DNA of 64,000 nt from Actinomycetes bacterium. GTDB taxonomy: Bacteria; Actinomycetota; Acidimicrobiia; Acidimicrobiales; JAMCPL01. Position 1 is the stretch's first letter. Every line of letters starts with the position of its first letter. Positions 654 through 21,325 of the stretch are shown here, piece by piece. The notes beneath the pieces were generated by a model, which did no database searches, had not been told where the DNA came from, and worked only from the letters and a program-made list of their open reading frames with translations. Made by a program: the position numbers and the translations under genes. The DNA is taken from positions 83,588 through 147,587 of the forward strand of contig JAKAWR010000003.1 of assembly GCA_021816935.1 (NCBI GenBank). The letters are read 5' to 3'.

Positions 654-829
654 CTGATTGCTCCTTTTCGATACCGACGAGAACCAATTGGTCCTTGTTG
701 ATCTTGTAAGCGGTAGTCCGCAGGGCCGAAACCCCCCTTCCTACCTTCCTCTCTGGTTACTTGTCCCACCATTTAGTAACGGTCCACGAGCTGCAATATT
801 GCGGCCTGCAGCAGTGGTTCTCACCGTAA

Positions 830-4817: not shown

Positions 4818-6370
4818 AGCCAACCCCCCAACAGGTGGAACACCGCGCTGAACCCGCCTCCAACCTCCTGGAAGAACCCCTTGCTGCCAGGCCTGTCGAA
4901 GGTGAGCTTCGGCATGGGCGGTAGCGCTGCCTGCCCTCCACCAGACCGTGCCGAACCGCTCCCACCGGCCGCTCCGGAGCCCCCGCCGCCTGATGCGACC
5001 ACGCGGGACCCTGAAAGGAGCAGGGCAGCTCTCTGGCCGGCGGCCAAGCCCGGGATCTTGGACAATCCGGCTGAGAACACTCCATCAACCGTGTTCGGCT
5101 GCGCCGCCCCCGGGACAACCTGTCCTCCGACAACGCCCGAATCGAATCCGGCGGGCCTCGCGGAACCACCTGCCCCGGCCTGGCTGCCGCCCGCAGCCTG
5201 TGCACTCGTAGCCGCCGGCTGCCCTCCCGCTCCAGATCCACCCGTGCTACCGTCGCTGGGAGGTATCACGCCGTTCAGGATCTGGGGTACCAGCCGAAGG
5301 ACCGGGTTGAAGTACCCCGATGCCGGATTACCGCACTCCCCGAGCGTTGCCTTGGCCTGCTCGGAAAGCCCGGCCGAGTGGTGAACGAGAACACGCCTGC
5401 AGATCCCCGCAAGCCTGTCCGCCAACATGGCCTCGAAGGTCTGCACCTGCGTGGGAGACGAGAGCTGAAGGTTCTCAGGCAGCCATCCGTGGTTGAAGTC
5501 GTTGGTCCGCTGGGCGCCCGAGAAGAGTTTCACGGTGTACTTCAACCCGGCATCGATCGTCGACAGGTTCCTGTCGATGGTCCTGCCGGTAGTGGCAAGC
5601 ACGGAGACGTCCTGCTTCAAGGGGCCAAGGTTGGGCGTAAGGAGGGCGGCGAGCTGGTTGCTCATGTTATCGAGGGCCGTCACGGCCTGGCCGAGCTGCT
5701 GCTCGCTCTGGGCAATGACGCCTGATACCTGATCGTAGGAGGATATAAGCGCTGCGAGCTCGGTATCGTGCGACCGCAGTACCCCGGTAACTTGTGCCAG
5801 GCTCTGCATGAGCTGTCCCAGCGTGTTGCCCTTCGCTGCCAGTAGCTGGATCGTGCCGGCGGCATCGTGGATCAGGCTGTTGAGCTGGAGGCTCTTGCCG
5901 GACAGATCCTGCGCGAGGTTGTCGATAAGGCTCCCGACCGCATGAGGATCTATCGCCTGAAGATAATTCTGCAGCTCCTTGAGCAGCTGGTTGGTCGTAA
6001 TCGGCACGTAGGCTCTCGACTCCGGGATCATGCCGCCCGCCGGCATTGCCTGACCACCCGTGTAACCGGGAGACAGCTCGACAGACGGCTCTCCCAGGAG
6101 CTCGGGCGTCACGAGCGAAGCTGTGACGCCCGCAGGGAGTTTCACACCGTTCTGCACCGACATAGTCGTAAGGACGCCGCCTGCGGTGTCCTGAATCGAA
6201 GTAACACTGCCGACCCGCACGCCGAGCAATTCGACAGCGTTACCGGTGAACAGCCCCTGTGCGCTCGGGAACTCCACCCGCACGGCGTATCCCGGATCCG
6301 AACCGAAGCATCCTGAGAGCCCCACCGCGGTCAGCGCAATTGCGGCCAGCACGGCAAGGTAACGCCTCAC
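4814..6370 (-). CDS. mceD: Mce family lipoprotein (MceD position)
   Basis: 518 residues from GTG at 6370, overlapping the mceC stop by 4 bp. The N-terminus is a lipoprotein signal (MRRYLAVLAAIALTAVGLSGC). The MCE domain follows at ~28-110 (FPSAQGLFTGNAVELLG, TPELLGEPSVEL). Residues ~120-330 are predicted helical. The last ~150 residues are Gly/Ala/Ser-rich low complexity (GGSGAGGQP, GGGGSGAAGG). Two consecutive lipobox-bearing Mce proteins (this and the next gene) is a little unusual, since textbook operons have one lipoprotein at the E position. Function: periplasmic or wall-space part of the lipid transporter. Confidence 0.82.
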   Translation of the reverse strand: MRRYLAVLAAIALTAVGLSGCFGSDPGYAVRVEFPSAQGLFTGNAVELLGVRVGSVTSIQDTAGGVLTTMSVQNGVKLPAGVTASLVTPELLGEPSVELSPGYTGGQAMPAGGMIPESRAYVPITTNQLLKELQNYLQAIDPHAVGSLIDNLAQDLSGKSLQLNSLIHDAAGTIQLLAAKGNTLGQLMQSLAQVTGVLRSHDTELAALISSYDQVSGVIAQSEQQLGQAVTALDNMSNQLAALLTPNLGPLKQDVSVLATTGRTIDRNLSTIDAGLKYTVKLFSGAQRTNDFNHGWLPENLQLSSPTQVQTFEAMLADRLAGICRRVLVHHSAGLSEQAKATLGECGNPASGYFNPVLRLVPQILNGVIPPSDGSTGGSGAGGQPAATSAQAAGGSQAGAGGSARPAGFDSGVVGGQVVPGAAQPNTVDGVFSAGLSKIPGLAAGQRAALLLSGSRVVASGGGGSGAAGGSGSARSGGGQAALPPMPKLTFDRPGSKGFFQEVGGGFSAVFHLLGGWL

Positions 6371-7662
6371 GACCCGGCCCCCACCAACACGTCCCCGAAA
6401 ACTACACCGAGAAGACCCCCCGCATTGCCCGCCCCTTCCCTGCCTGGCCGCAGGTCGCCACCCTTTGCTCCTCCGGCCTGCCCGGGGCTTGCCGCGCTGG
6501 GACCGCCCGAGTTGCCCGAAGCCTCAGCGACCCCAGGAGAACCGGCCGCGACGGCACCACTGCTGCTCCCCACGCCCCCACCGGCCCATCCGGACGGCGG
6601 CAACGGCCCGCTGCGCTCGCTGCAAGGCACCGGATCCGGTCCCAGCACCGCATTCATGGCGATGTCGATGGCGCCGCAGTTCCCGAAGACTGCCACGATC
6701 GGCCCGGCCGACCCGGCCGCGTTCTCGAACGCATTGGCCCAGCCGAGAAGAGTGCTACCGGACTCGCCAATGTCGGCAAAACCGTGGATCCCCGCTGCCA
6801 TGTACGACAGGGCCTCAGCAAGGTCCAGCTGGTGCGCCGAGACCACGGAGAGCACGGAGTGAAGGTGGTCCAGGAGCTGCTGGAGCTGCGGCTCATTGTT
6901 CGCTGCCGCCGCCGCCACCTGCGTTGCCATCGCTTCGGTGTTCAGGATCAGAGACCGCACCGTAGACGATTCCGCCGCAAGCCCCTTCATCACGATGTCG
7001 AGGTTGTCGACAAGCGAGGCGAGCTGGTGATCCCCACTCGCCACAGCAGAGGACAGCGTGTTGGCGGCGTCCAGCAGGGAGCTCACCTGCCCGCTGCGCT
7101 GGTCCACCACGGCCGTGATCCGATCGAGCCCCGAGATGATCTGCGACACCTCCTGCTGCTTGCCTTTAGTGAGATCCGAGAGCTGCCCGATCAGCTGATT
7201 CAACGACTTTGCGTCGCTTTGCGACACCAGCGTCCCCGCCGCATCCTGGAGCTGGTAGAGCTCCACGGGCACCGAAGTATCGGTTATCAGTGCCCCTTGA
7301 TGGAGCGGATGCGCCCAGCCACTCCCCGGTATCAAGGCGACCTGCAGAACCCCGAGCAGCGTCTCGACCTGAATGCTCGCACTCGTGTGGGCCGGCAGGA
7401 CCGTACCACCGTTTATTGCGAGGTCGGCCACAACGCTGTTGCCCCGGATGTGGAGTCCCGACACCGACCCCACATTGACGCCCGCGAGGACAACCGCATC
7501 ACCGTCTCCGATCCCCGCCGCTGACGAGAACCTTGCCTGAACCGTGTAAGAGCTCTGGAAGATCGACCGGTTAAGCAAGAGCGCCCCGGCCCCAAGGGCA
7601 AGGATCACGGCAACGGAAAGGAGACCCACCCGCTTCTTGTTGAATTCGGTAAAACTCTTCAT
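6367..7662 (-). CDS. mceC: Mce family protein (MceC position)
   Basis: I place the start at ATG 7662 (MKSFTEFNKKRVG), 26 bp after the mceB stop. GTG at 7671 has a GGAG at 10 nt and is equally possible. The frame extends much further upstream, but that part overlaps mceB and is Arg-rich with no family features. One membrane anchor (LLSVAVILALGAGALLL) precedes the MCE domain (~35-115; FSSAAGIGDGDAVVLAGV, ETLLGVLQVALIPG) and a helical stretch to ~330. The tail is Pro/Gly-rich. A pair of cysteines flanks IDIAMNAVLGPDPVP. Confidence 0.83.
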   Translation of the reverse strand: MKSFTEFNKKRVGLLSVAVILALGAGALLLNRSIFQSSYTVQARFSSAAGIGDGDAVVLAGVNVGSVSGLHIRGNSVVADLAINGGTVLPAHTSASIQVETLLGVLQVALIPGSGWAHPLHQGALITDTSVPVELYQLQDAAGTLVSQSDAKSLNQLIGQLSDLTKGKQQEVSQIISGLDRITAVVDQRSGQVSSLLDAANTLSSAVASGDHQLASLVDNLDIVMKGLAAESSTVRSLILNTEAMATQVAAAAANNEPQLQQLLDHLHSVLSVVSAHQLDLAEALSYMAAGIHGFADIGESGSTLLGWANAFENAAGSAGPIVAVFGNCGAIDIAMNAVLGPDPVPCSERSGPLPPSGWAGGGVGSSSGAVAAGSPGVAEASGNSGGPSAASPGQAGGAKGGDLRPGREGAGNAGGLLGVVFGDVLVGAGS

Positions 7663-7688
7663 CCCGCGCACGCCCGGCCTGCTCCGCC

Positions 7689-8918
7689 TCACTTCGCTCC
7701 ACCTCCGCCACCACCGCCTGTAGCCAATCCCTCGAGTATCTTCGATAGCGCTCCCGTACCCGTCAGATCCCCTCCTGCGGCCCGCGCGACCGGCTGCCCG
7801 GGCACCTGAGGAAGACCCGGCGTTGCCGGAGCCTGCGGGCCCGATCCCGGCGGGGCGCCGAAAGGGCCCGATCCGGGTGGCGTATTGAGCGGCGAGTAAT
7901 AGCTGCACAACTGCTGGCCTGCAATGCACGTGTAAACGGTGTTGAGCTCGAACCACTGCCCGAGCGCCGAGATTTGCCTGTAGGCGCCAGCCGCAGGCCC
8001 AAGCTTGCGGAGTCCCTGCGCAAGTGGGACATCGTTCCTCTCCACCTGCCCCGTGACGGTATCGAGGCCGTCAACGGCGCCGCTGATATTGTGCTGGTTG
8101 GTCGCAAGCAAGGTGGCAAGGTCTGCAGATACCTGCGAGAGGTCGGCGACCGAGCTGTCGAGCAGGATGTTCCTGGATGAGAGACTGCTGACCACCTGGT
8201 TCAAGTTCGATATCACTTCGGTGAGGCTGGACGAGTGAGCGGCCAGCGCGGGCAGGATCTGCGAGAAGTTCCCTATGAGGCTCCCCGCGGTGCCGGAAAG
8301 AGAACCGAGAGTGGACGACAACGAGGCGGCGCTCGAAACGAGCTGGTTGATCTGGGCCGTATTGCCCTGCACGGCATCGAGGACCGCCACCACGAATGCG
8401 TTGACCTCCTGGGGGTTGATCGCCTGCAAGAAGGGGCCGAGGCTGTTAAGGAGCGCTCCGACACTCGCGCTGGAGACGTCGTGACTCGACGGGATGGTAG
8501 CGCCAGCGGCAAGTTGCTTACCCGTCGTACCTGGGTAAAGGTACAGGTACTGCTCGCCGATAACGTTGTGCCACCTGAGACCGGCGTCGGTAGATGACCT
8601 GAGGTGGATGTCGCTGTTGACGCCGAACGTGACGAACGCAAGGCCGTGTCTCACCGTGACCCCGTCCACCGCGCCAACCGCAACCCCGGCTATCTTGACC
8701 TGATCCGACGGGACCAATCCGGTTGCATCCGCCAGCAGTACATGGTAGGTCGTACGGCTCTGGAAGAACGAGATGCTCCCCACCTTCGCTACCAGATAGC
8801 CCAGGAGCGCGATTCCCACAGCCACGAAGATCCCGAGTTTCACCGAGCGGGCGGCAAGAGCCGAAGACATATGAGCTCGCTGCAGGTGAAAGCGGTGCGT
8901 ATGCCTAAGGGTTGCCAT
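7689..8918 (-). CDS. mceB: Mce family protein (MceB position)
   Basis: 409 residues from ATG at 8918, with GGGGG 7 nt upstream; ATG at 8870 is a weaker alternative. Membrane anchor at ~27-47 (LGIFVAVGIALLGYLVAKVG), MCE domain at ~55-145 (LLADATGLVPSDQVKIAGV, HNVIGEQYLYLYPG), then a helical tube region rich in Ser/Leu/Val to ~330. Two cysteines (TCIAGQQLC) precede a Pro/Gly tail. The 47-bp gap to mceA is the largest inside the mceA-F stretch but holds no obvious terminator. Confidence 0.85.
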   Translation of the reverse strand: MATLRHTHRFHLQRAHMSSALAARSVKLGIFVAVGIALLGYLVAKVGSISFFQSRTTYHVLLADATGLVPSDQVKIAGVAVGAVDGVTVRHGLAFVTFGVNSDIHLRSSTDAGLRWHNVIGEQYLYLYPGTTGKQLAAGATIPSSHDVSSASVGALLNSLGPFLQAINPQEVNAFVVAVLDAVQGNTAQINQLVSSAASLSSTLGSLSGTAGSLIGNFSQILPALAAHSSSLTEVISNLNQVVSSLSSRNILLDSSVADLSQVSADLATLLATNQHNISGAVDGLDTVTGQVERNDVPLAQGLRKLGPAAGAYRQISALGQWFELNTVYTCIAGQQLCSYYSPLNTPPGSGPFGAPPGSGPQAPATPGLPQVPGQPVARAAGGDLTGTGALSKILEGLATGGGGGGGAK

Positions 8919-8965
8919 CAGGATGCCCCCACGCTTTGCGGTGCGCGGAACGCAAGGGGAGCCAC

Positions 8966-10291
8966 TTACAACACCCCTCCCATGATCGTGCTGAGTGCCC
9001 TGCCGCCCGGGAGGTCAACCGGCACCTGCGGGTTCGACAGCGTCTGGTAAAGGTTCTGAGCGAGCCCCTGCAGCGCTTTCCCTATCGGCTGGGGCAGTTG
9101 AGCGGGAAGCGACGATGGTTGCTGTGTTCCCCCGCCGACCGGGTTGGAAGGACCGGCCACTTGCGAGGCACCGTAAGGGGCGGGCAGGCTCGGTGCAGGA
9201 GAAGGGATACTGCAGCCGAGCTGGTTGCCCGCCCCTTCCAATGCCTGCTGGAGCCCAGGTAACACGGCTCCTCCGCCCGGGCTGCCTGCTGCGCCAATGA
9301 GCTCGCACAACAGGTTCTTCAGATCACTGAACTCGACGAATGTGGCCAGGTAGGTGTAGTGGTTGCCGTTCGGGAGCACTCCTGTGCTCGCGCTGGCCTG
9401 CCTCGTTATGAATACCAGGAGACCGTCCACAACATGGCCTATGTTCTGCTGGCGCACGAGGAGCAGCCGGGATACGTTGGCGCCCTGCACCATGAGGGTG
9501 GCAATGTCCGGGCGGTACTCCAGCAGTAGTGCCGAGATGGAGTCGGACATCGAGGTCAGCGTCGTGAGAAGCCGATCATAGGCAGCCTGCTCGTTGTCGA
9601 AGAGCGGCAGAAGCTTGTTCTCGGACACAGCCATGGAGTTGAAGCTGGGCCCGGTCGGCGCCAGGTACCCTGAGAACGTGGCGAGCGAGTCGAGCGCTGC
9701 AAGCTGGGCCGGCAGGGTGGCGGAAAGGAGCGAAGCCAGCTTGTTGGTGGCCTGGATCGACGCGACGATCCGGGGACCCTCGCCGGCGCTCGCCTGGTAA
9801 AGCTCGGAGATCACGCCCGACAGCTTCGTCGCGTCGATCTTTGCGAGCAACGGATCCGCAGCCTGGAACAGCCGGCCCAATTGATCGGAGACCGATGTAT
9901 TCCGTATTGCCTGTCCGGCTGCCAGATACGGCGGGCGGCGTCCAGAGGGCATCTCAAGGGATATCCGCTCGGCTCCGAACAGGTTCAGCGGCTCGATAAT
10001 CGCGGACGCATCGGCGGGAACCTTGAACCCGGGATCCATGCTGAGGACTACTCGAGCCATACCGCTCCGGAGGCCGGCACTCAGGACCCGGCCAACCTGC
10101 ACCCCCCTGTAGTCGACTTCGGTGCCCGCCTGCATGCCCGCGCCTGCGCGGCTGAAATATCCCGTGATCTCGTAATTGCCCGAATAGTCGCCGTTGACGG
10201 CTTTGACGGAGACAGTAATCACGGCAGCGAGTACCGCCACGATCACGACGCCCGTCAGAATCTTGGCAAACCGGCGGCTCTTGTGGCTCAC
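8966..10291 (-). CDS. mceA: Mce family protein (MceA position)
   Basis: I chose GTG at 10291 (VSHKSRRFAK), which has GAGAGG 8 nt upstream; an in-frame GTG at 10321 lies nearer the yrbEB stop. One membrane anchor (ILTGVVIVAVLAAVITVSV) precedes the MCE domain (~40-120; FSRAGAGMQAGTEVDYRGV, NLFGAERISLEMPSG). A long helical part runs to ~330, then a Pro/Gln/Gly tail. MceA-type proteins start the six-protein set that assembles with the YrbE permeases. Two cysteines (LLCELIG and LGCSIPS) could be disulphide linked outside the membrane. Confidence 0.85.
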   Translation of the reverse strand: MSHKSRRFAKILTGVVIVAVLAAVITVSVKAVNGDYSGNYEITGYFSRAGAGMQAGTEVDYRGVQVGRVLSAGLRSGMARVVLSMDPGFKVPADASAIIEPLNLFGAERISLEMPSGRRPPYLAAGQAIRNTSVSDQLGRLFQAADPLLAKIDATKLSGVISELYQASAGEGPRIVASIQATNKLASLLSATLPAQLAALDSLATFSGYLAPTGPSFNSMAVSENKLLPLFDNEQAAYDRLLTTLTSMSDSISALLLEYRPDIATLMVQGANVSRLLLVRQQNIGHVVDGLLVFITRQASASTGVLPNGNHYTYLATFVEFSDLKNLLCELIGAAGSPGGGAVLPGLQQALEGAGNQLGCSIPSPAPSLPAPYGASQVAGPSNPVGGGTQQPSSLPAQLPQPIGKALQGLAQNLYQTLSNPQVPVDLPGGRALSTIMGGVL

Positions 10292-10328
10292 GGGATCCGC
10301 CTCTCGCTCGCCGGGCGGCACTGCCCGC

Positions 10329-11273
10329 TCATCCGACCAACCTCGCCGATGAGGTGTTCAGGCCTCCGAACATGACCATCGACAGGAACAGGGAGATGAT
10401 CACCACTCCTATGACGGAGATCCGGATTGCCCGTCCCGTAGCCTCACCCACCTCCGCTGGCCCGCCCTTCACGTGGTAGCCGTAGTAGCAGTGGACAAGG
10501 GTGATGAAGACGACGAAGACTATAGCCTTGATATAGGAGTCGAATACATCGAGCGGCGACAGGAACAGCTGGAAGTAGTGCTTGTACACTCCACTCGAAA
10601 GGGAGAAGAACTTGGTCGCCATCACCTCGGATGCGAGGTAGCTGGCGAACAGCGACGCCGTGTAGAGCGGGATCATCGTTATGAGAGACGCTATGACTCT
10701 CGTGCCAACGAGGTACGGGAGCGGGTCTACGCCCATGACCTCGAGGGCGTCGATCTCCTCCGATATCCTCATGGCGCCTAGTTGCGCCGTGAAACTGGCC
10801 CCTACTTGCGCGGCAAAAACGTCGCCGGCGACGAGGGGCGTGATCTCCCTCGTGTTGCCGAGCGAAGCTATGACGCCGGTGAGCGAGCCCGCTCCGATGA
10901 GGTGAAGTCCCGAGTACCCCTCCAGGCCCACGAGCGAGCCCGTGAAGAAGGTAATGCTCATCACGACGAGGAACGTGCCGCCCCCGACGACGAGTGCGCC
11001 GGCGCCCATCGTGATGTCCGACACGAGCAACGTGATCTCCCGCCTGTACCGGATCGCCCTGGGCAGCCCGGCAAACACCCTCACGCCGAAGGCTAGCTGA
11101 TCGTAGGTGGCCTCGAAGAAGAAGAGGATGAACCGGGCGGGCGGCCGGAGGCTGCGCCTGATTCTCCGAATGGTGCCTGCGCCCGCCCTCGCCCCCCCCT
11201 GGTACGGCTGGGGACGGCCCGTTCGGCTTGCCAGGGGGATTTCCCGCCGGTCCGGAGGTGCCTGGATTGCCAT
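10329..11273 (-). CDS. yrbEB: MlaE/YrbE-family permease B of the mce transporter
   Basis: 314 residues. Multi-spanning permease of the MlaE family that carries lipid through the cytoplasmic membrane with an Mkl/MceG-type ATPase. Family hallmarks are visible: an amphipathic N-terminal helix, SITFFTGSLVGLEGY, the conserved coupling-helix region with EEIDALEVMGVDPLPYLVGTR (split here around the E-x-D-A-L-x-V-M-G core) and a C-terminal helix pair. The ATG is 1 bp after the yrbEA stop, so the two permeases are coupled. The ATPase gene is not in the window, as is usual for actinobacteria where it sits elsewhere. Confidence 0.92.
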   Translation of the reverse strand: MAIQAPPDRREIPLASRTGRPQPYQGGARAGAGTIRRIRRSLRPPARFILFFFEATYDQLAFGVRVFAGLPRAIRYRREITLLVSDITMGAGALVVGGGTFLVVMSITFFTGSLVGLEGYSGLHLIGAGSLTGVIASLGNTREITPLVAGDVFAAQVGASFTAQLGAMRISEEIDALEVMGVDPLPYLVGTRVIASLITMIPLYTASLFASYLASEVMATKFFSLSSGVYKHYFQLFLSPLDVFDSYIKAIVFVVFITLVHCYYGYHVKGGPAEVGEATGRAIRISVIGVVIISLFLSMVMFGGLNTSSARLVG

Positions 11274-11274
11274 C

Positions 11275-12228
11275 TCAGATCACCTTCTGCGGGATGAAGT
11301 TGAAGTAGAACGAGGTGAGAACGAAATCGACGGCGAAGGCGAGAACGAAGGAAATAACGACCGCCTGGTTGACCGCGTCGCCCACCCCCTTCGAGCCGCC
11401 CTTCGCGTTGAGTCCCTTGTAGCAGGCGACCATGGCCGTGAGCAGCCCAAAGATTGCCGCCTTGACCAGCGACATCACCAGGTCGGCGATCTGCGAAAGA
11501 TCGCTGAAGGTGGCAAAGAAGCTCGCCGAGCTTATACCGAGAGAATGCTCAGCGAAGAAGAGTCCTCCGAGAATACCCGAGATAGCGACAACACCGTCCA
11601 GGATGACCGCCATGACGGACGCGGCGGCAAGCCGGGGAAGGACAAGCCGCTGGAGCGGGTTGATACCCATGACCTGCATCGCGGAAATCTCGTCGCGGAT
11701 AACCCTGGAACCCAGGTCTGCCGTCATTGCCGAACCGCCCGCTCCGGCTATGAGAAGGGCCGTCGCTAGAGGCGCCTGCTCCCTCACCGTTGCCAATACC
11801 ATGATGGCCCCGAGCTGAGCTTGCGCCCCGACCTGCAAGAGAAGCGAACCCACCTCGAGGGCGATGATCATCCCGAAAGGCACCGATATGAGGATGCAGC
11901 CGAGCGTCGTAACCCTGGCAAGGAACCAGGACTGGTCGACGAACTCGCCCACGGGAAAACCCTCCCTGAATCCCAGCCGCATTGCCTCCAGGCCCATGGA
12001 GAAGATTGCCCCCACCTCCCCCACCAGCCACGCGACTTTCCCCCCTGCGCTCACAATGGGCTTAGCCCCCAGCCCAACCGGTCGCGCACCGAGGGATGGA
12101 TCCTCTGGGGGCTGCCCCGTTCCGTTGCGCCCGCCGGCTACGGCTACCGACTGTCCTGACGCACCCACATCGCTCATGCCCTTGATAACGCATGAAAACC
12201 CCCCATGTTGCGGATTCCGGTTCGTCAT
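11275..12228 (-). CDS. yrbEA: MlaE/YrbE-family permease A of the mce transporter
   Basis: 317 residues from ATG at 12228; ATG at 12177 (MSDVGASG, AAGG 3-6 nt upstream) is a plausible shorter start because the first ~55 residues are Gly-rich and not conserved-looking. The MlaE domain begins near residue 65. Hallmarks: VPFGMIIALEVGSLLLQ, GGSAMTADLGSRV and the E-I-S-A-M-x-V-M-G-I-N-P coupling segment. Five or so hydrophobic helices follow. First gene of the mce operon proper, 64 bp downstream of the diguanylate cyclase gene with no hairpin seen between, so co-transcription with the sigma/cyclase pair is possible. Confidence 0.9.
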   Translation of the reverse strand: MTNRNPQHGGFSCVIKGMSDVGASGQSVAVAGGRNGTGQPPEDPSLGARPVGLGAKPIVSAGGKVAWLVGEVGAIFSMGLEAMRLGFREGFPVGEFVDQSWFLARVTTLGCILISVPFGMIIALEVGSLLLQVGAQAQLGAIMVLATVREQAPLATALLIAGAGGSAMTADLGSRVIRDEISAMQVMGINPLQRLVLPRLAAASVMAVILDGVVAISGILGGLFFAEHSLGISSASFFATFSDLSQIADLVMSLVKAAIFGLLTAMVACYKGLNAKGGSKGVGDAVNQAVVISFVLAFAVDFVLTSFYFNFIPQKVI

Positions 12229-12292: not shown

Positions 12293-14515
12293 TCAGCCGA
12301 TTATGCCGGCGATCAGGCTTGTAACCGAACCCAGGCCTGACGCTCCCCGACAGGATGCGCACTTTCCGTGGCCCGGATGAGCGTGCGCCGAAGCGGACCG
12401 ACCCGCGCCATACGACGAGCTCTCTGTCGATGAAGACGAAATGGCCAGTAGCGTCGGGACCGACGCCACTGGCGGCAGCCCTGATGTCCTCGTGACCTGT
12501 TTCAACACTTGACTCACCAGGTCGGTAGCGCTTGGTGGCGTCGGCGCGGGCGACCCGCCGGGGCGCGAGCCCTTCGGTTTGATCCCACTCGCCGGACCGC
12601 TCCCGCTTCCCGAAGGGGAGGTCTGTGATCGGCCACCGTCCGGAGAAATCCGTTCGGCAACCTCTGAGGCCGCTCCGGCGACACCAACGCTGCCCGAGCC
12701 CTCGGGATTCCCCGAGGGCGTACCGGACCCGGCGCCTCTGCCGGTGCCTGCAAGCGACCCCGACCCGTGCCCACTCACGCTGGGAGAGGCACCTCTAGGC
12801 CGCCCGCCCGCTTGATAGGTGGACCCGCCGAGTCCGGGGCCGCTGGTAACCGGAGGCGACTTCTCCGCTGGATTCGACGGCACCTGGCCGCCGCCGGAAC
12901 CCAGAAAGGCGCCAATAGCCACTACTCCCGCCACCGCGGCCACGACGGCTGCAGTTGACACGAGTCGCGGTCCGCCTGAGCGCATCCAGGTCGCCGCGCC
13001 CGCAAGGACCTTCCCCACCCGCCCCGTACCGTTCTCTTCGCCGGACTCCGGGCCAGCCAGCGGACCGAGGGATTGACCGGACTTCTCGCCCGTGCCGGCA
13101 CCGGGATCGGGCGCGTTCGCCACCACATCAGAATTCGCCGCCATATCCACAGGCGTCAGTCCTACGCCTGCGTCCGCGCCGGACAGGGTAGCAGGGTCTC
13201 GTTCCACCGCCCTAACCACGCGATCCGCTCCGGGTTCGACCGCTGCAACCACGCTATCCGCTCCAGCCTTGACAGGAGAAGGGGGCGCGGCAGTAGCAGG
13301 AAGGCGCGGCGCTATGCTCACCACCTTTCGCCTCTGCGAGCGACCAAGGTAAAGGCTCTCGTCGGCCTTGGCAAAAAGCCCGTCGAAGCTCTCCCCGTCG
13401 CCCGGGTAGGTCGCAACTCCCCAACTGAAGCGTGGAGCACCGATCCGGGTGGCACGATCCATCATGGAGGTAGCCTGGCGGCCAGCAGCCATGGGAAGGA
13501 GCACGACGAACTCGTCGCCGCCGATCCGGTAGACCGAGTCTGCCCCCCGAACCGCTCCCCGGAGGGCGCCCGCGAGGGCCTTCAGCGCCTGATCTCCGGC
13601 CGCGTGCCCCTGCAGGTCGTTGATCTGCTTGAGCCCGTCCAGGTCGACGACAACAACCGACAGGCTTGTGCCCAGCCTTTCCGCCCGGGCCAGCTCGTGA
13701 GCGGCCACCTCGTCGAGAAGCCTCCGGTTGCCGCAGCCAGTGAGCGGATCCTCGACAGCTGCTCCTGCCAAGTCCGATACGATCGCCCCCGAGGAGCACG
13801 TCATAGTGAAGTCGATCAGGTCGTGGAAACTTCCCACCCCCCCGGTATCGACAACGCCGCTCCAGTGGCCAAGCACCTCACGTAACCACGACAACCTGGT
13901 CATGGCCGTCTCCAGGTCTGGGTTGGCTCTTACCCACTGAACTGAGGCGTCACGCAGGACATCGATATTCCCGCTGCCGAGAGCCAGGCCGTGAAGGCGG
14001 CCTGAGCGAGGCGACCCCGCCTGCTCCGGGTTCCACGAGCCGCTTTCCGCACCGCGCTGCCACGGTATCGCGGTACTCGGGGGCTGGGATGTTAGGCACT
14101 GTGGCAACTCCCGGCCTTTGGGACGAAGGCGTCCGGTGCGAGGACGTCCGGTGGACGTCCGAGAGGAAGGGAGGCTGAGATGGCGAAGCGCGACCGAGGT
14201 CGGCGCCGGCTCCCCACTGGTGGCATAACCCACAATCGTCTCTACCAGCGCAAGCGCCGGGCGGGTGGACCATTGCAAGGGCGTACCCCGGTAATACTCC
14301 CGTTCGCGCTCGTCGCAAAGCAGGGCCCACTCATCGTAAATCTCACGGGCCACGCTAGTCGAGTTCACGGACCCGGCTCCTGCCGCATCGGCACCGCCAG
14401 CCACCGCACCGCTTCCGGCCCGAGGGACGCTGCCCCGGGTTCCCGCCAAAGCGCCGCCTGCCCGAGCAGTACTATCATCCCGGCGATCTGCTCGTTTCCC
14501 TGCGGAAGCAGTCAC
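12293..14515 (-). CDS. Membrane-anchored GGDEF diguanylate cyclase with exported tail
   Basis: 740 residues. A GGDEF domain at ~255-415 contains the intact GGDEF motif (~331-335), the DxD-type metal region (VVVDLDGLKQIND) and an RxxD inhibitory site (RGAD) exactly 5 residues before GGDEF, so it should make c-di-GMP and be product-inhibited. No receiver, PAS or GAF domain is seen before it; residues 1-250 are partly low complexity. One transmembrane segment (~515-540) is followed by ~200 residues of Gly/Ser/Pro-rich sequence ending with a CASC motif near residue 720 and a hydrophobic C-terminus. The topology cytoplasmic GGDEF, membrane, exported tail is inferred. The start overlaps the sigma factor stop by 4 bp (ATGA). 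Confidence 0.85.
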   Translation of the reverse strand: MTASAGKRADRRDDSTARAGGALAGTRGSVPRAGSGAVAGGADAAGAGSVNSTSVAREIYDEWALLCDEREREYYRGTPLQWSTRPALALVETIVGYATSGEPAPTSVALRHLSLPSSRTSTGRPRTGRLRPKGRELPQCLTSQPPSTAIPWQRGAESGSWNPEQAGSPRSGRLHGLALGSGNIDVLRDASVQWVRANPDLETAMTRLSWLREVLGHWSGVVDTGGVGSFHDLIDFTMTCSSGAIVSDLAGAAVEDPLTGCGNRRLLDEVAAHELARAERLGTSLSVVVVDLDGLKQINDLQGHAAGDQALKALAGALRGAVRGADSVYRIGGDEFVVLLPMAAGRQATSMMDRATRIGAPRFSWGVATYPGDGESFDGLFAKADESLYLGRSQRRKVVSIAPRLPATAAPPSPVKAGADSVVAAVEPGADRVVRAVERDPATLSGADAGVGLTPVDMAANSDVVANAPDPGAGTGEKSGQSLGPLAGPESGEENGTGRVGKVLAGAATWMRSGGPRLVSTAAVVAAVAGVVAIGAFLGSGGGQVPSNPAEKSPPVTSGPGLGGSTYQAGGRPRGASPSVSGHGSGSLAGTGRGAGSGTPSGNPEGSGSVGVAGAASEVAERISPDGGRSQTSPSGSGSGPASGIKPKGSRPGGSPAPTPPSATDLVSQVLKQVTRTSGLPPVASVPTLLAISSSSTESSSYGAGRSASAHAHPGHGKCASCRGASGLGSVTSLIAGIIG

Positions 14516-16809
14516 AAGCCGGCACCTCCATCAACAACACTGCCGAGGCTCGGTACCGATACTGCCGTGCCGGTGCTCCCGGTGCTCCCGGTGCTCGAAG
14601 TACTACCACTGGTTACCGACCCGCTAGATACCGTAGGCGTCCCCGAGAGGATCCCGCCCGAACCCGATGAGGACGAAGTGGAGGTCGGAGAGGTCGAGGA
14701 GGATCCCGAGGCCGGAGACGAGGTAGAGGTTGAGCCACCTGACGGCAGGGACGATCTCGACGCCGAACCGGATGTCGAGGTCGGCACGGTCGGGATAGCC
14801 GAGCTCGATACGGGTGTCGACGAGGTTGGGAGCGAGTTGGAAAGGGTCGAGGTGGACGATGGGACAGAGCCCGCGCCCGGAAGAGTCGACCCGGCGACCG
14901 ATCCGGCGGATGGCAGGCTCCCTACCGGGAGCGCACCGGACACGAGATTGCCGGCACCACTCAGGACTCCGCCGGCCTGCTGAAGCAACCCGGATCCACC
15001 AGAGGTCACCGTCTGGTACAGGCCGGACAACGCCGAAGATCCGATGAGGTCCTGCACCGCTCCCTTGGCACCGCCAAGCGGCCCACCACCGACCCCGGTT
15101 CCCGGAGGCAACAACCCGGACACGGTACCTACCGCCCCGTTCAAGAGGGTGGAAGCAGGCGATCCGCCAGAGCCACCCGAACCGGCAGCACCTCCCGTAA
15201 CGCCGTACAGGATCTGCAGCAACCTGCCAATTTCCTGCTGAATAGCCGGGTTGCCCGATCCCTCGCCCGTGCCCGCCGCTCCCCGGAATCGCAGCGATGC
15301 CCCAGTCGCCGGGTTCGAGGGAGCCAGACCTGAACCTACCGTACGACCGGCACTCTGGCCGGCTCCCTGTCGCACCGCCAGTAATGATCCGGGCAGCGGC
15401 GACCGGATCCCTCCGGCCGCATCGTGGGCCGGTCCCCCGGCAAAGTGCCCGGCGGCAATCGACGCGACCACCGCCACACCTGCCACCGCAACGGCTGCCG
15501 TCCCGGCAGAGACCGCCTTGACATGGGCGGCGAGCCGCACCGAGCCGTGCACCAAGCGCCGAGGTATGCCTCGTAGAGCGATCAGCATGGCGCCGAGAGC
15601 GCCCACCTTTGCCCGGCGGCCTTCCCGCTCGTTGCCTTCGAGCTCGCAGAACTCGCGCTTGAGAGCCTGACGCGCCCGCCAGAGGAGCGTCTGCACGGCC
15701 TCGATACCGATCCGCTCGTGATCTGCTATTTCCTGGTAGGACCACCCCCACTGCTCCCGCATCTCGAGAATGCGCCTGTGCCTCTCACGAAGCCTGGAGA
15801 ACGCCTGCGCCGCAACGGCCGCGTCCGCTCCGGCCATGACAACCTCTTCGAGATCCTCTCCGGGCACCTGCTGCCTCGTCGCTACGAGCTCTATCTCGCC
15901 GCTCGGAGTAGACCGGGATCTCTTCCGCAGATGCCCGATACACAGGTTCGACGCAATCACCGAAAGCCACGGGAAGAACCGCTTGTCGCCGGCGAATCCG
16001 GGAAGAGCTTTGTACGCACGCTCGAATGACTCCTGGGCCACGTCCTCCGCGTCGCACCTGTCTCCCAGCCTCTTGAGGCACATTAGGTAGATCCGCCGGT
16101 AGTAGTGAGAATAGAGCAACCCGAACGCCCCCGTGTCGCCTCCCTGCGATCTTTCCACAAGCTCTCTGTCGCGATCCAGGTCCACGACGCCCTCCGGCAG
16201 TGGAACCGTCCTCAGCTCCGCTATGTCGCTCGCAAAGAGCGTCCCGCCGGCTCCGTCGCCTCCGTACTCACCGCGACCCGCAAGCGCATGGTCAGCGCTT
16301 TCGGCTGCGGATACGGGAAGAACCGTCACCTCCGCGAAACGCTCGGCGCGCTCTCCCTCCTTCCGGGCAGCACCTTCGGGTCGCATGCCGGCGCCTGTGG
16401 CGTCACGGGTACCGGCGCCTACGAGATCGTCGGTGATCATGAGGTCCCCGGACGGCCCGTTCTCGTTGGCTGACCTGCGATCGCCGGCTATCCTACGATC
16501 GTCGCGCAACCTCCGATCAACGACCCCGTACGCGCGGGATCCCGGGTCCTGGTGGCGCGCGCGCCGATCGTCGCGCTCACGGCGATCCGTAACGCTTCGC
16601 ACGTCCGCAAGAAGTCGTCCCCCGTCACGCTTGCGCCCTTCCCCGAGGCAGCCCCTACTCGCTTGGGCATGCCCCGTTACCGGGATGCGCAGGTTCCGCC
16701 TGCGCTTCGCGGTGCCCGCCATATCTCCGGAGGCAGGCGCCATAGTAGATTCCTCGCCTGCAACGTCGAAATCAGTGTCGACCGCTGTCGAGTCGTGAAG
16801 AGGTCCCAT
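14512..16809 (-). CDS. ECF-type sigma factor fused to a membrane anchor and long exported tail
   Basis: 765 residues from ATG at 16809, which has AAAGGGG 7 nt upstream; GTG at 16830 is in frame. Residues 1-210 are disordered and Arg/Asp-rich. Sigma region 2 lies at ~215-290 (DAEDVAQESFERAYKALPG, then FFPWLSVIASNLCIGHLRK), region 4 at ~345-395 (LRERHRRILEMREQWGWSY, QEIADHERIGIEAVQTLLW). A transmembrane segment follows (~430-455; AVSAGTAAVAVAGVAVVASIA), then ~300 residues of Gly/Ser/Thr-rich tail. Sigma factors are normally soluble and held by a separate anti-sigma factor. Here the tether is built in, so release by proteolysis or conformational control from outside is a reasonable idea. No separate anti-sigma gene is adjacent. 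Confidence 0.88.
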   Translation of the reverse strand: MGPLHDSTAVDTDFDVAGEESTMAPASGDMAGTAKRRRNLRIPVTGHAQASRGCLGEGRKRDGGRLLADVRSVTDRRERDDRRARHQDPGSRAYGVVDRRLRDDRRIAGDRRSANENGPSGDLMITDDLVGAGTRDATGAGMRPEGAARKEGERAERFAEVTVLPVSAAESADHALAGRGEYGGDGAGGTLFASDIAELRTVPLPEGVVDLDRDRELVERSQGGDTGAFGLLYSHYYRRIYLMCLKRLGDRCDAEDVAQESFERAYKALPGFAGDKRFFPWLSVIASNLCIGHLRKRSRSTPSGEIELVATRQQVPGEDLEEVVMAGADAAVAAQAFSRLRERHRRILEMREQWGWSYQEIADHERIGIEAVQTLLWRARQALKREFCELEGNEREGRRAKVGALGAMLIALRGIPRRLVHGSVRLAAHVKAVSAGTAAVAVAGVAVVASIAAGHFAGGPAHDAAGGIRSPLPGSLLAVRQGAGQSAGRTVGSGLAPSNPATGASLRFRGAAGTGEGSGNPAIQQEIGRLLQILYGVTGGAAGSGGSGGSPASTLLNGAVGTVSGLLPPGTGVGGGPLGGAKGAVQDLIGSSALSGLYQTVTSGGSGLLQQAGGVLSGAGNLVSGALPVGSLPSAGSVAGSTLPGAGSVPSSTSTLSNSLPTSSTPVSSSAIPTVPTSTSGSASRSSLPSGGSTSTSSPASGSSSTSPTSTSSSSGSGGILSGTPTVSSGSVTSGSTSSTGSTGSTGTAVSVPSLGSVVDGGAGL

Positions 16810-17052
16810 CGTAACGCCCCTTTGTTTCACTCATCGTGTTTCCGTTCCAAACAACCCCCGCCGTGTCCGCCAACACGCCTGCCTGCCGGGCGAAGCCTGT
16901 ACCACTGATCTTAGTGATACCGCCGACCCGATAAACCGTCACCCGAGCGGTTGAGATCCTCCCAAGAGACCCGCGCCGCTGTCCCTTGACTAGGAGATCG
17001 GCAGGATACGCCCTGACCTGTAGGGCCAACCCCTCGAGCCTCAATCCCCTGT

Positions 17053-17865
17053 TCACAACCCCGCCGTTCCCGTTTTCTCGCTGCCCGTCGCCGGGGCGAG
17101 TGCGCCAGTGGCAGGCCCCACGGGCAGGTCGCCGGTGGTGCCTTCCGTACCGCCCGTTCCGGTACCGCCCGTTCCGGTACCGCCCGTTCCGGTGCCAGTA
17201 CCCCCCTCGGTGCCCGTCATGGGAGCAAGCGCACCTGTTAGCGGAGCAAGCGCACCTGTTAGCGACCCCAAGGGTGACTCGCCGCCTGTACCGCTCCCGG
17301 TCCCGCCTGTACCGCTCCCGGTCCCGCCTGTTCCGTTGCCTGGGCCGCCTATTGTGGATTCGCTCCCGGTCCCGGTCCCGGTGCCCGACACCCCCTTCCC
17401 GATGCCTGCGACCTGCGCACCGCCAGGTTGTCCCGGGGAACCCGGCAATGCCTGCACCCCTCCCGCAAACGAACCTGGCACCGGCGACTTCAGTCCGGAT
17501 CCACCCGGCGCGCCGGATCCTGTGCCATTCTCGGCAGCGGCTGCCGCGCCAACAGCCGGGCCCGCCCCTTGCGCCCCGTGTCCCCCGGCTCCCGGTGGTA
17601 CGGCTGCATTCACGTACCCGGTGCGATCCGCAGCAATCGCCCCGCCGGTCAACCCCTTGCCTCTCCCCTGCCCAGCCCCTGAAGCGGCCGCCCCACCTCC
17701 ACCGGCGCGGAAACCGGGAACGTGGTAGGAAGGTGCCGAACCGCCCTGCAGGATCGCGGGAAGGGACACCGGTAGCGAGGCACCGAGGCCGCCCATGACT
17801 GCCCCCACGGAGAACGCTACCAACGCGCCTCCCGCCACCACAAGAGAGCCGCGGAACCTCATCAC
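17053..17865 (-). CDS. Secreted glycine/threonine-rich repeat protein
   Basis: Up to 270 residues. GTG at 17865 overlaps the sortase stop (GTGA); the next codon, ATG at 17862, has GAGGAGG at 5 nt and is probably used. A signal peptide or anchor (SLVVAGGALVAFSVGAVMGGLG) is followed by low-complexity exported sequence: GTGGTGSGTGG and GTGTGG runs and a duplicated GALAPLTGALAP element that comes from a repeated 21-bp DNA unit (ggagcaagcgcacctgttagc, 17223-17264). No domain recognised. Coupling with the sortase suggests an envelope role. A 222-bp gap with no detected gene separates it from the sigma factor. Confidence 0.7.
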   Translation of the reverse strand: MMRFRGSLVVAGGALVAFSVGAVMGGLGASLPVSLPAILQGGSAPSYHVPGFRAGGGGAAASGAGQGRGKGLTGGAIAADRTGYVNAAVPPGAGGHGAQGAGPAVGAAAAAENGTGSGAPGGSGLKSPVPGSFAGGVQALPGSPGQPGGAQVAGIGKGVSGTGTGTGSESTIGGPGNGTGGTGSGTGGTGSGTGGESPLGSLTGALAPLTGALAPMTGTEGGTGTGTGGTGTGGTGTGGTEGTTGDLPVGPATGALAPATGSEKTGTAGL

Positions 17866-18986
17866 GCCCTCCTCAAGGTCCAGGAGCTGATCGTGAGCTC
17901 CGATCCGTTGACTGCTTCGGTCACCGTCTCGTAGTAGCTACCGGGTTCGGATCCGCCTGGCAAGGACACCGCCGTGGAGAGGGTCACCGACACCGGGGTA
18001 TCCCCCTGGGCGTCAATCGCCACATTAAGCGGATCCAGCGCCTGCGGCCTGCCCGCTCCAACCAGCGCGCCCGGCGCTGCCACCCCCGGAGCGAGTCCCT
18101 GCCACCATGACGTCTCGTTTCCTGCCAGAGCGTGCAGCCCGCCGAAGTAGGCCTCCAGAGCTGCCGCCTCTACGGCAAGGGGGCCAGGCGACTGCGCCCA
18201 TGCCCCGGACGACGAGCCGGATATCTCCATCCGCCCCATCGGAACCTCGTTAGCCTGCAGCGTAAGCCCCTGGGCTTGGAGCTGTACCGGGGCGGGCACC
18301 CCGGGCTCACGAGCGAAACCTTCCGCCTGCGAGACCAGTACCGCGCTCTCGGCCGGAGAGACGATCCTCGAAACGCCGATCTCCCGCGCCATCACCACGT
18401 AACGATTCGGTGTAAACCAGAGGGCATTGGTCGGCCAGCACGTGTCGAGCGCCAGGCTCGCAAAAGGTTCGCCGGGCAGCGCGGATCCCGCGTCAACCAC
18501 CGCCTGCCGGTAGACCTGGAACCTGTAAACGGTGCAGTCCTGGCTGAAGGTCATCACATCGCCTGCGCGCAACACGTTCAGGCGCCCGAAATAGCTCACG
18601 TCATGGGCCAGCAGCACCGAGGTGCCCCCGGCCCCGGGCATCACTGTCGCCGGGTAATGCCCGACGGCCACGGAAAGAACGGAATCGGAGACACCCTGCT
18701 CGACCGGAGCTGTGACACCGAGCGCCGGGATCGAAAGAACCCCGAGGATGCTACCGGCGTCGGCGGGAGCGGCGATGCATGCATTCGCCCGGGTGCGGCG
18801 GACCTGGGCTGAAGCATCCGGCGAAGTGCGCTCCGGTCCCGATCCGCGCCTGGCCGCCTTCACAAGCTCCTTACCTGCCGTCTGCTGGTGTACCGTCCAA
18901 CCGGTCACATAGCCCATCGCACCCAGGCCGCACCAGACGAGCAGGGTGCCCACGGTGCTCCTGATCCTCGCTGCATTCGCAATCAT
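17862..18986 (-). CDS. Sortase family transpeptidase (class E/F-like) with C-terminal extension
   Basis: 374 residues from ATG at 18986, chosen because AGGTGG sits 5-6 nt upstream and the ATG follows the upstream stop by 7 bp. One N-terminal membrane segment (VGTLLVWCGLGAMGYVTGW) precedes the sortase barrel (~65-230). The catalytic triad is visible: His in LLAHDVSYFGRL, Cys in LALDTCWP and Arg in TPNRYVVMAR. Residues after ~235 form an extra ~140-residue domain not part of the core fold. Sortases cleave a sorting motif in exported proteins and join them to the wall or to other subunits. Likely substrate: the upstream neighbour, whose C-terminus has a candidate motif. Confidence 0.85.
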   Translation of the reverse strand: MIANAARIRSTVGTLLVWCGLGAMGYVTGWTVHQQTAGKELVKAARRGSGPERTSPDASAQVRRTRANACIAAPADAGSILGVLSIPALGVTAPVEQGVSDSVLSVAVGHYPATVMPGAGGTSVLLAHDVSYFGRLNVLRAGDVMTFSQDCTVYRFQVYRQAVVDAGSALPGEPFASLALDTCWPTNALWFTPNRYVVMAREIGVSRIVSPAESAVLVSQAEGFAREPGVPAPVQLQAQGLTLQANEVPMGRMEISGSSSGAWAQSPGPLAVEAAALEAYFGGLHALAGNETSWWQGLAPGVAAPGALVGAGRPQALDPLNVAIDAQGDTPVSVTLSTAVSLPGGSEPGSYYETVTEAVNGSELTISSWTLRRA

Positions 18987-18993
18987 TTCCCAC

Positions 18994-20649
18994 CTACCGC
19001 GAACCGCTGCCTGCCCAGCGCCCGGTACCCGTTGCCCGTCCGCCCGCCGGAGGAGGCAACCGCCTGCAGAGCACCGCAGCGAGCCTCGATATGCGCCTCC
19101 ACTCGAGGAGGACAAGACCTGCGAGCACCATCCCCACCAGGTAGGGCATCGAGCCCGACCAAGGCTCACCGGTGTGAACGCTGGTTGCACCGGTTATCGG
19201 TGCGGCTGTCGCGCCGACCGCTGCCGGCGGGGTTGAAGCCGATACGGTCTTAGCGAGAGTGCTCGACGAAGGGGCAGCCGCGCCTGCCAAAGTGGCGTCA
19301 GCCGTGGCAAGTGACAGGCGCAAGCCGCCTCCATACGGATCTGACGCAGGAGCTCCCGCTCCCTCCGCCAGATCGACCGACAACCCCGACGATGATGCCA
19401 GGGCACCCGAGCCCGAGGCGCTGTGGCTGCCACTCGCCACCGTCACGGTGGATTGCAGCGGCGTGCCCGGGAGAACCGTTATCGACTGACCGGAAGCGAC
19501 CTGCTCCGTCTTGGCGCCCGACGCCGGAGTGGACACTGTCACAGTCGCTATGGCCGGTGAGTCGCTCGAGGAGAACGTGCCGTTGACAGCATCGTACGAT
19601 GCCGTTGCGCCAGCCACTCCGAGAGACACGCTGAGGAGTGGCAAGCCGTTCTGACCGGCTCCCGGCAGCAGGTCCAACCGGACCGCGTTAGCGAGAGCCG
19701 TGGACTTCATGCTGCCGTTGCCGCCTACGCTTTCCACAGTCGACGTGGCCGGCCCGCTCTGAATAGAGAGGATCTCCGACGACACCGGTATATGAAGAAG
19801 CGTGCCCAGGATCGAGGCGAGGGGTGCTCCGGTGAGCGGCAGGGATGGCAGCGTGCCGGCTGTACCGCCTCCTGCGGTCCCTATGCCGGGCAGTGAACCG
19901 CCGTTTGAGCCGTCGCCGGGAAGCCCCGCGAGGCGCTGCCGTGTAGCCGCCGGCAAAGCAGCACTCGGCAAAGGAATCGAAGGTATACCTCCGCCGGGCT
20001 GCGATCCACCGGTTGCCGGAAGGCCGATACCCGGCAGCCCCGTCGTCGGCAGACCCGATCGCGCTAAACCCGTGACGGGACCAAGCAGGTTCAGGATGCC
20101 TGCGAGCGAGAGCTGAACGGATGCAACAGAACCGCTCCCGGTCGCAGACACGAGCCCGTTCTGCGTGATCGAAGTATCGGCTGACGCACAGGCAAGCCCG
20201 GCATCGAGAGCCTGGCCGATCTGCGGCAGGGACGGTAACGTAGGTGTGGCACACCGCTGAGGCTGATTGTCTGAAGTGCCCGGTCCGGCCGATTGCGTGT
20301 GAGCGCTGCCGGTCAGGATCGGAAGAAGTTCTCCCATCCCGGATGCCGCTGCCGACGGATCGACTCCTGTGGTCCCGCCTGCGGATCCGGCGGCCGTTCC
20401 CGATGCCTTGCTCGCCCCCACCACCAGGGTCCGTCCGGCGATCTGGATGCTCAGCTCCCGGACTGACGATCCGGCTCTGATCTGAGTGATCTGCGCAGCA
20501 GTAGGAGTGGCAGCCGCCGATTGCGTGACTGCGCCGTAGCCAACCGCCAGCACGGCCGCTGCCGCAGGCACCGCTGCAATCGCCGCTAGCTTGCTCCACT
20601 TGCGGGGATCGAACCCGTTTCCCGCTGACCAGCTGTACTGCCTATGCAC
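18994..20649 (-). CDS. Large secreted surface protein, candidate sortase substrate
   Basis: 551 residues from GTG at 20649 with GGGAGG 6 nt upstream. A signal peptide (LAAIAAVPAAAAVLAVGYGAV) is followed by Ser/Gly/Pro-rich sequence with regular hydrophobic repeats, suggesting beta-rich or extended surface structure (GLPTTGLPGIGLPATGG; TLPSLPLTGAPLASILG). Near the end is SVHTGEPWSGS, then a hydrophobic helix (PYLVGMVLAGLVLLEW) and a basic tail: the classic layout of a sorting signal, though the motif is not canonical LPxTG. The sortase gene starts 7 bp after its stop. Two cysteine-bearing segments (QRCATPT, GLACASA) occur near residue 135-155. Confidence 0.7.
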   Translation of the reverse strand: MHRQYSWSAGNGFDPRKWSKLAAIAAVPAAAAVLAVGYGAVTQSAAATPTAAQITQIRAGSSVRELSIQIAGRTLVVGASKASGTAAGSAGGTTGVDPSAAASGMGELLPILTGSAHTQSAGPGTSDNQPQRCATPTLPSLPQIGQALDAGLACASADTSITQNGLVSATGSGSVASVQLSLAGILNLLGPVTGLARSGLPTTGLPGIGLPATGGSQPGGGIPSIPLPSAALPAATRQRLAGLPGDGSNGGSLPGIGTAGGGTAGTLPSLPLTGAPLASILGTLLHIPVSSEILSIQSGPATSTVESVGGNGSMKSTALANAVRLDLLPGAGQNGLPLLSVSLGVAGATASYDAVNGTFSSSDSPAIATVTVSTPASGAKTEQVASGQSITVLPGTPLQSTVTVASGSHSASGSGALASSSGLSVDLAEGAGAPASDPYGGGLRLSLATADATLAGAAAPSSSTLAKTVSASTPPAAVGATAAPITGATSVHTGEPWSGSMPYLVGMVLAGLVLLEWRRISRLAAVLCRRLPPPAGGRATGTGRWAGSGSR

Positions 20650-21325
20650 GGCCGGCCTCCCTTCACTTTCCGGCGCCCTTGCTCTCGCTGCCTTTTCCGC
20701 AAGCCGGCCTACATGTAGACCGGCAGCACAGGAGCCATTCCTTCAACGAAAATGAGTCGCCTGCCCCGGGTGAAGTTCCCTCGGATGCTCGACGCCACTA
20801 ACAATTCAACGGCCCTGGCGGCAACTTCTTACGGTCTGGCGAAAACTTTTCGTAGTTTTTCTGCCACGCTCCGCTGCCCTCGGCGGCAGGCGTGCAGGCG
20901 GTCCTCGCAAGCAGGGATATCGGCGTGACCGATTATCTCGGATAGCAATAGCAGGGAGAAGGCAGCCATCCTCGAAGCGAGGCGATCGGCGTAGCCGATA
21001 TCTCGGATAGCAGAGGGGAAGGAAGCCCCGAAGGGCTAACCTTCCCCTGGCTCTGCTATGGGGTGCGCAGAGAGCTTGGTTTCGCATGGGTGCCCGCATT
21101 CCGCAAGTACCCATGCGACAGCCACTGCATTGATGGGACGCATGTACAACGACCAACACCTCCCCTTCTTACGGTTCCGCCTGCAAACCCGCTCCGACGT
21201 GCAGGCGGCCACGAGAACTTCCTGCCCGGGGCTCGGCCGGGGGGCTGGTGGGGCGGCGGGCCGGGCAAGATTCTCCCGCAACGAACCAGCGCCCCCGTGC
21301 TTGCCCCCAGGAAACGTCGGACGGC
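20650..21325. other. 676-bp gap without a convincing gene
   Basis: The region holds an imperfectly duplicated segment (ggcgt-accgat followed by tatctcggatagca, at ~20922-20946 and ~20985-21012) and a long hairpin at 21007-21059. Open frames here have atypical composition and no recognisable domains. It separates the 3' end of the aminotransferase gene from the 5' end of the surface-protein gene, so it should hold a terminator and a promoter; I could not identify a clear promoter. Confidence 0.5.
21007..21059 (-). terminator. Long two-level hairpin, possible terminator of the aminotransferase gene
   Basis: Outer arms atagcag...aggggaagg (5') and ccttcccc...ctgctat (3') pair with a small bulge; inside them agccc and gggct form a second stem with a cgaa loop. 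No T-run follows on either strand, so a simple intrinsic terminator is uncertain; an RNA-structural role is possible. Confidence 0.4.

Follow-up and report, generated by a model that had tools for sequence, protein, structure and literature searches.

In the Acidimicrobiales, bacteria from soil and acid water about which little is known, a conserved family of ECF sigma factors is predicted to be anchored in the membrane by its own C-terminus, and we hold with moderate confidence that such a factor commands a regulon of its own, consisting of the yrbE-mce operon and MlaF ATPase of an Mce lipid transporter, a sortase and surface-protein cluster and, in several lineages, a tethered diguanylate cyclase. 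The window analyzed here, a stretch of 64,000 nucleotides from one member of this order, contains a locus of this type. Comparison between genomes demonstrates the sigma family, its predicted membrane segment, the genes that accompany it, the putative promoter and the genes behind that promoter. A first-pass annotation of the window had proposed the sigma factor and the cyclase as a module; the tie to mce and a recurrent link between the two genes stand, whereas the pair itself is not the conserved unit.

All features of the locus lie on the minus strand, in the order substrate-like protein, sortase, Gly-rich protein, ECF sigma factor, cyclase, yrbE1, yrbE2, six mce genes and an Rv0361-like gene, so that the pair does lie, as had been noted, upstream of a complete mce operon, which is on the same strand. 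The YrbE1 (11275..12228; PF02405, 3.4e-63) and YrbE2 (10329..11273; PF02405, 5.7e-61) permeases are followed by six MCE-family proteins (2320..10321), the first of which is identified by Pfam and NCBIfam (Mtu_fam_mce, 156 bits) and the others by position and blastp among loci. The Rv0361-like or Mce-associated protein (1257..2261) gives a weak NCBIfam match (E 0.012), and its homologs adjoin mce in loci L120 and L127. A MlaF-like ATPase sits just beyond the window on this same strand, at window-equivalent positions -481 to -1590, and is 67% identical to the protein of genome G097. Two PF02405 permeases, six MCE proteins and a MlaF/MceG ATPase together constitute an Mce transporter of the mycobacterial type. 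Between the mce operon and mlaF lies a gene for a secreted protein (1-740 and upstream); it encodes PSPPSG repeats, and some of its bases are unresolved (N).

The sigma factor gene spans 14512..16830, although a better start is the ATG at 16809, which has AAGGGG seven bases upstream. A CGTT ahead of this ATG was considered as a -10 element and rejected, because the ribosome site precedes it and the start codon follows it. The protein contains sigma2 (15913-16116, residues 239-306; Sigma70_r2, PF04542, 53.3 bits, 2.4e-14) and sigma4 (15661-15807, residues 342-390; Sigma70_r4_2, PF08281, 28.4 bits, 1.3e-6), both over the Pfam cut-off and together covering 15661..16116, and no sigma3, which is the arrangement of an ECF (group 4) factor; TIGR02937 matches with 87.3 bits against an NCBIfam cut-off of 42.9. 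An AlphaFold model contains two helical domains and is confident over sigma2 and sigma4. The N-terminal extension is unusually long (about 200 aa, 16430-16809) and carries DRR repeats, while homologs mostly have 20-60 residues there. Past sigma4, a single predicted transmembrane helix passes the threshold (residues 442-460, 15451..15507) and is followed by a low-complexity tail of 312 aa (14515..15450), of which 76% is G/S/T/P/A/N/Q. The cyclase likewise has one predicted transmembrane helix, its tail being about 204 aa long, and the shared plan of a domain, one membrane segment and a G/S-rich tail noticed earlier is thus borne out by prediction.

A hydrophobic segment follows sigma4 in 62/62 complete homologs at a lenient Kyte-Doolittle threshold, a regularity beyond chance, the topology being a predicted one. 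In several homologs there is a weaker hydrophobic stretch in addition to the first. Net charge around the segment is +4 in the 25 residues before it (median of the mce-linked clade) and +1 after it, a bias that favors an N-in/C-out orientation. The linker between sigma4 and the membrane is only about 40-50 aa, and the tails range from 39 to 371 aa across the 62 complete homologs with no conservation of sequence. The earlier remark had been that the sigma factor has no separate anti-sigma gene; in a scan of these C-terminal extensions, the HxxxCxxC anti-sigma zinc motif occurred in 0/62 of the predicted membrane-tethered proteins. Moreover, Pfam found no fused anti-sigma domain in the window protein, the stretch from sigma4 to the membrane helix contains no folded domain, anti-sigma-like or other, in the structure prediction, and the tail matches no Pfam family at E 0.1, carbohydrate-binding modules included. 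No conserved binding or cleavage site was seen among the tails of the homologs.

Homologs were sought in 118 genomes from this order, with the trimmed sigma domain as the query, and also among 84,980 named genomes; close homologs came almost only from Acidimicrobiales. Two of the loci (L110 and L142) derive from records labelled Acidobacteria(-ota) that are possibly misbinned. When 395 genomes from across the class were surveyed, every strong match (E <1e-60) fell within the same order. This distribution marks the sigma factor as one of a family conserved in the Acidimicrobiales. In the tree, the window protein groups with L080 and L081 (support 100/99), and a larger set comprising all mce-, MlaF- and sortase-linked loci is split from a set that has no such links, with a support of 88/87 that is below the starred level. 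A second clade (L116, L122, L129, L130 and related loci) co-occurs with mce in the genome at distant positions, with no motif at yrbE. A shared motif was also sought for this clade and rejected, as its top dyads resemble conserved MlaF coding sequence or clade relatedness.

It is not the cyclase that constantly accompanies the sigma gene but the mce operon, the gene for the MlaF-like ATPase and those for a sortase and its substrate. A yrbE gene occurs in 22/25 genomes with a close sigma homolog versus 11/93 without one (118 genomes; Fisher p 7e-13, a test that is inflated by kinship). In the linked set, the mce operon, often with the substrate and sortase genes, usually occupies one strand and sigma-MlaF the other, and a sortase is present in 25 of the 72 named sigma loci. 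Judged from these neighborhoods, the conserved unit is the sigma factor together with mce, MlaF and the sortase and its substrate.

The window sortase (17862..19190; start probably near 18986; PF04203, 2.2e-18) scores 66.7 against a Pfam cut-off of 26.6 and is tentatively class D/E-like; its NCBIfam class scores stay below their cut-offs, at 72.8 versus 140 (SrtD), 65.2 versus 165 (class D) and 54.9 versus 160 (class E). The probable substrate (18994..20649) is a secreted protein that ends in SVHTGEPW, a hydrophobic segment and RR. A C-terminus of this form, [ST][VI]HTGEPW followed by a hydrophobic stretch and an Arg-rich end, was present in 14/25 sortase loci and in 0 loci without a sortase, and homologs of the window protein that carry it were found in L080, L084, L089, L093, L113 and L114. 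It looks like a dedicated sorting signal, unlike LPXTG. The third gene of this group encodes a Gly-rich secreted or anchored protein (17053..17865), and a similar protein lies behind an exact promoter site in L287.

The putative promoter was found by an unsupervised dyad search of the 500 bp upstream of sigma genes with no prior motif, which returned CGCAA-N17-CGTT in divergent orientation at 14 loci versus a shuffle maximum of 5-7. Among the 72 named sigma loci, 24 yrbE1-upstream regions (window included) and 25 MlaF-upstream regions could be tested, and the exact pattern is present upstream of yrbE1 in 19/24 and of mlaF in 16/25, while upstream of yrbE2 and mce1-6 it occurs in 0/109. The spacing is fixed: spacings from 10 to 25 were scanned, and all 35 matches have 17. 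The flanking bases are conserved as well, with G in 90% after CGCAA and CCC after CGTT, and many start codons lie 9-12 bases beyond CGTT, which is consistent with leaderless transcripts. From these properties, CGCAA-N17-CGTT is a predicted ECF-type promoter; Sigma-70-type promoters were sought in the window from 11.8 to 21.1 kb and none was found. The yrbE site is present in 8/10 genomes with a mce-type sigma factor versus 0/21 control genomes that have yrbE but no such factor (p 6e-6 in a Fisher test that kinship inflates), and in G033, G083 and G043 the yrbE motif and the sigma gene are on different contigs. At yrbE1, the exact site is missing from two of the ten mce-linked genomes, G097 and G109. 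Because the sigma factor and the motif co-occur, we infer that this sigma factor reads the motif.

The exact pattern occurs twice in the window. The site at 12187..12214 (TCCGCAAC-N15-GCGTT) is the predicted promoter of the mce operon, and because of its position the ATG at 12177, nine bases past it, is a more likely start for YrbE1 than 12228. The other site (778..805) precedes the gene for a secreted proline-rich protein leading to mlaF. A near-match at 20808..20835 (ACCGTAAG-N15-CCGTT, 12/13) is a further predicted promoter and would serve the run of substrate, sortase, Gly-rich protein, sigma factor and cyclase; there is a weaker second copy at 21175-21148. The cyclase gene contains, near its 3' end and ahead of the mce promoter, a strong 13-pair hairpin (12444-12473) that is possibly an attenuator or a terminator; its T-run is weak. 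Over the whole genome of the window organism, matches to the exact pattern are only modestly more numerous than those to its reversed control (16 versus 10). The cultured Aciditerrimonas ferrireducens MV1 has four strict matches genome-wide, of which one lies ahead of yrbE1, one ahead of mlaF and one ahead of a tailed cyclase. With the pattern reversed as a control, three matches are obtained in this genome too, so that positions rather than counts carry the argument.

The motif is found at other genes as well. In eight genomes it also precedes sortase-substrate genes, genes for Gly-rich secreted proteins and an Rv0361-like gene. In L270, L278 and L298 it stands ahead of genes for secreted hydrolase- or protease-like proteins and low-complexity anchored proteins, which suggests a wider envelope regulon. 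Some sigma homologs with no linked mce (L132, L141 and L143) have a site upstream of their own gene, suggesting autoregulation.

The cyclase gene (12293..14515) overlaps the sigma gene by 4 bp, its GTG start overlapping the sigma stop (GTGA) and a ribosome site (GGAGGT) lying eight bases upstream of the GTG; the overlap of an ECF sigma gene with a GGDEF gene had been described from the first reading and is confirmed with Pfam domains for both. The GGDEF domain (13328..13756; Pfam 1e-29, 103.8 bits) is intact, with an I-site RxxD (RGAD) five residues ahead of GGDEF, and both motifs are invariant in 14 homologs. The protein is thus predicted to be a diguanylate cyclase that synthesizes c-di-GMP, with an intact active-site motif and I-site; its transmembrane helix is placed at about residues 518-536 (12908..12964). 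The statement that it has no sensor domain was wrong as worded, as a conserved helical N-terminal domain is present, for which no Pfam family was found in 14 homologs and a fold search returned GGDEF matches only and no known sensor fold. An insertion of about 75 residues in this domain (13983-14209, residues ~103-178) is predicted to be disordered and is absent from the 48%-identical homolog of L081.

Regarding the link between the two genes, the neighborhood survey found direct adjacency in one further genome (L081, YP3.bin99), so that the tandem does exist elsewhere, but the window and L081 are the only cases among 72 sigma loci and the pair as a conserved unit is rejected. In two related genomes MlaF lies between the sigma gene and a tailed cyclase, namely in L126 and in the L128 genome, where the order is inferred across a contig break from a match at a contig end. 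Many other genomes have a tailed cyclase elsewhere, away from the sigma gene. The window genome encodes four GGDEF proteins. The exact motif is upstream of 4/17 GGDEF genes with a TM-tail plan versus 0/29 other GGDEF genes. As such, comparison of gene positions and promoters indicates that the sigma factor does have a link to c-di-GMP, but a patchy one: the two genes adjoin in two genomes, are separated by mlaF in two, and are unlinked in four, with the cyclase behind the same promoter.

It is possible to combine these elements in a single scheme. The C-terminal helix would keep the sigma2-sigma4 part at the inner membrane face, with the low-complexity tail predicted to be outside. The sigma domains would be freed once a signal from the envelope acts on the tail or the membrane segment, most simply by cleavage followed by intramembrane proteolysis, for which IutY and the mechanism proposed for ECF52 offer precedents. 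The freed factor would then steer RNA polymerase to gaCCGCAAG-N15-cCGTT promoters and thereby to mce, MlaF and the substrate-sortase-sigma-cyclase run; transcription of this run would amount to positive autoregulation and would include the cyclase. The tethered cyclase may make c-di-GMP at the membrane and couple envelope remodeling to surface behavior. In its full form, the scheme is a one-protein switch made of a sigma factor, an anchor and an unstructured tail with no anti-sigma domain, sensing the envelope and dedicating a regulon of Mce, ATPase, sortase with HTGEPW substrate and tethered c-di-GMP synthase to its remodeling. This full form we put forward only tentatively.

Other explanations were weighed against it. 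The motif may belong to another sigma factor or to an activator, the tethered protein being a conserved neighbor with a different regulon. The second sigma clade, which keeps company with mce but has no motif at yrbE, agrees with such a view, as does the rarity of the motif upstream of the sigma gene itself (4/71); however, the yrbE motif tracks the mce-type sigma factor even across contigs and is ECF-like with a fixed spacing, and we regard this explanation as unlikely. The tandem of sigma factor and cyclase could also be an accident of neighborhood with no functional link, given that adjacency is confined to few genomes and that no tailed cyclase was detected in the (incomplete) genome of L080, the closest sigma relative. 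Against this, linkage recurs in two lineages (window/L081 and L126/L128) and unlinked tailed cyclases carry the sigma-type promoter, which makes mere accident rather improbable.

The tether itself can be read differently. It may have no regulatory role, the sigma factor always working at the membrane or being merely localized there, with its output set by transcription of its own gene. The wide divergence of the tails in length and sequence, together with the absence of a conserved binding or cleavage site and of a recognizable anti-sigma domain, speaks for this; the membrane segment is nevertheless kept in all complete homologs, and the precedents of IutY and ECF52 favor control through the tether (PMC8999054, PMC5826349), so that we give a non-regulatory tether a low probability. 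A cytoplasmic tail on a two-pass anchor, or a tail that is surface filler reflecting a general habit of G/S-rich tails in these genomes, would fit the two hydrophobic stretches of several homologs and the G/S-rich composition that the MCE proteins, the substrate and the Gly-rich protein of the cluster also have. Only one segment passes the threshold in the window sigma factor, however, the charge bias favors a tail on the outside, and the tails contain no Cys-rich or enzymatic domain, all of which renders this option quite improbable. We thus retain the tethered sigma factor with its own envelope regulon as the preferred reading.

The analysis supplies a concrete promoter sequence, a regulon prediction and a cultured organism (Aciditerrimonas ferrireducens MV1), with which envelope control of Mce lipid transport, and the way it is coupled to c-di-GMP, can be tested directly. 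It also provides a tethered sigma factor with no recognized anti-sigma domain. No paper treating a sigma factor and mce together in Acidimicrobiia turned up in the open library that was searched.

Among known systems, the closest in plan are ECF52, ECF53 and ECF48 (SCO4117 of Streptomyces coelicolor), Actinomycetota ECF factors with a C-terminal transmembrane segment and a low-complexity extracytoplasmic extension, for which proteolytic release has been proposed (PMC8999054, PMC5826349). The present factor shares the C-terminal segment (a predicted hydrophobic stretch in 62/62) and the low-complexity extension, but lacks the zinc-finger anti-sigma (ZAS) motif in 62/62 homologs; unlike ECF52, it has no carbohydrate-binding domain by Pfam, and its neighbors are mce, MlaF and sortase. 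Membership in ECF52/53 was rejected because both the ZAS motif and the carbohydrate-binding module are absent, and by its sequence features the protein is an ECF52-like tethered ECF factor rather than an ECF52 member. In Pseudomonas putida, the sigma factor IutY (ECF243) is fused to its own membrane anchor and released through cleavage by Prc and RseP (PMC8999054). IutY contains a fused anti-sigma portion and serves siderophore signaling, whereas no anti-sigma domain was found in the factor described here. SigX (ECF102) of Pseudomonas aeruginosa is an envelope-stress ECF factor with the c-di-GMP enzymes adcA and PA1181 in its regulon (PMC4477172); it is soluble and has a putative soluble anti-sigma, CfrX (PMC8999054). 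The tie of an ECF factor to c-di-GMP enzymes is common to both, but the present factor is predicted to be tethered, and SigX has no link to mce or sortase.

With respect to the transporter, the locus resembles the lipid importers Mce1 and Mce4 with MceG of Mycobacterium in its two YrbE permeases, six MCE proteins and MlaF/MceG-type ATPase. The mycobacterial mce operons are regulated by Mce1R, Mce2R, Mce3R and KstR, and we know of no dedicated sigma factor for them or for Mce systems generally. In M. abscessus, deletion of sigH raises mce expression (PMC13340314). If the one-protein switch is correct, mce in the Acidimicrobiales would be under a sigma factor of its own.
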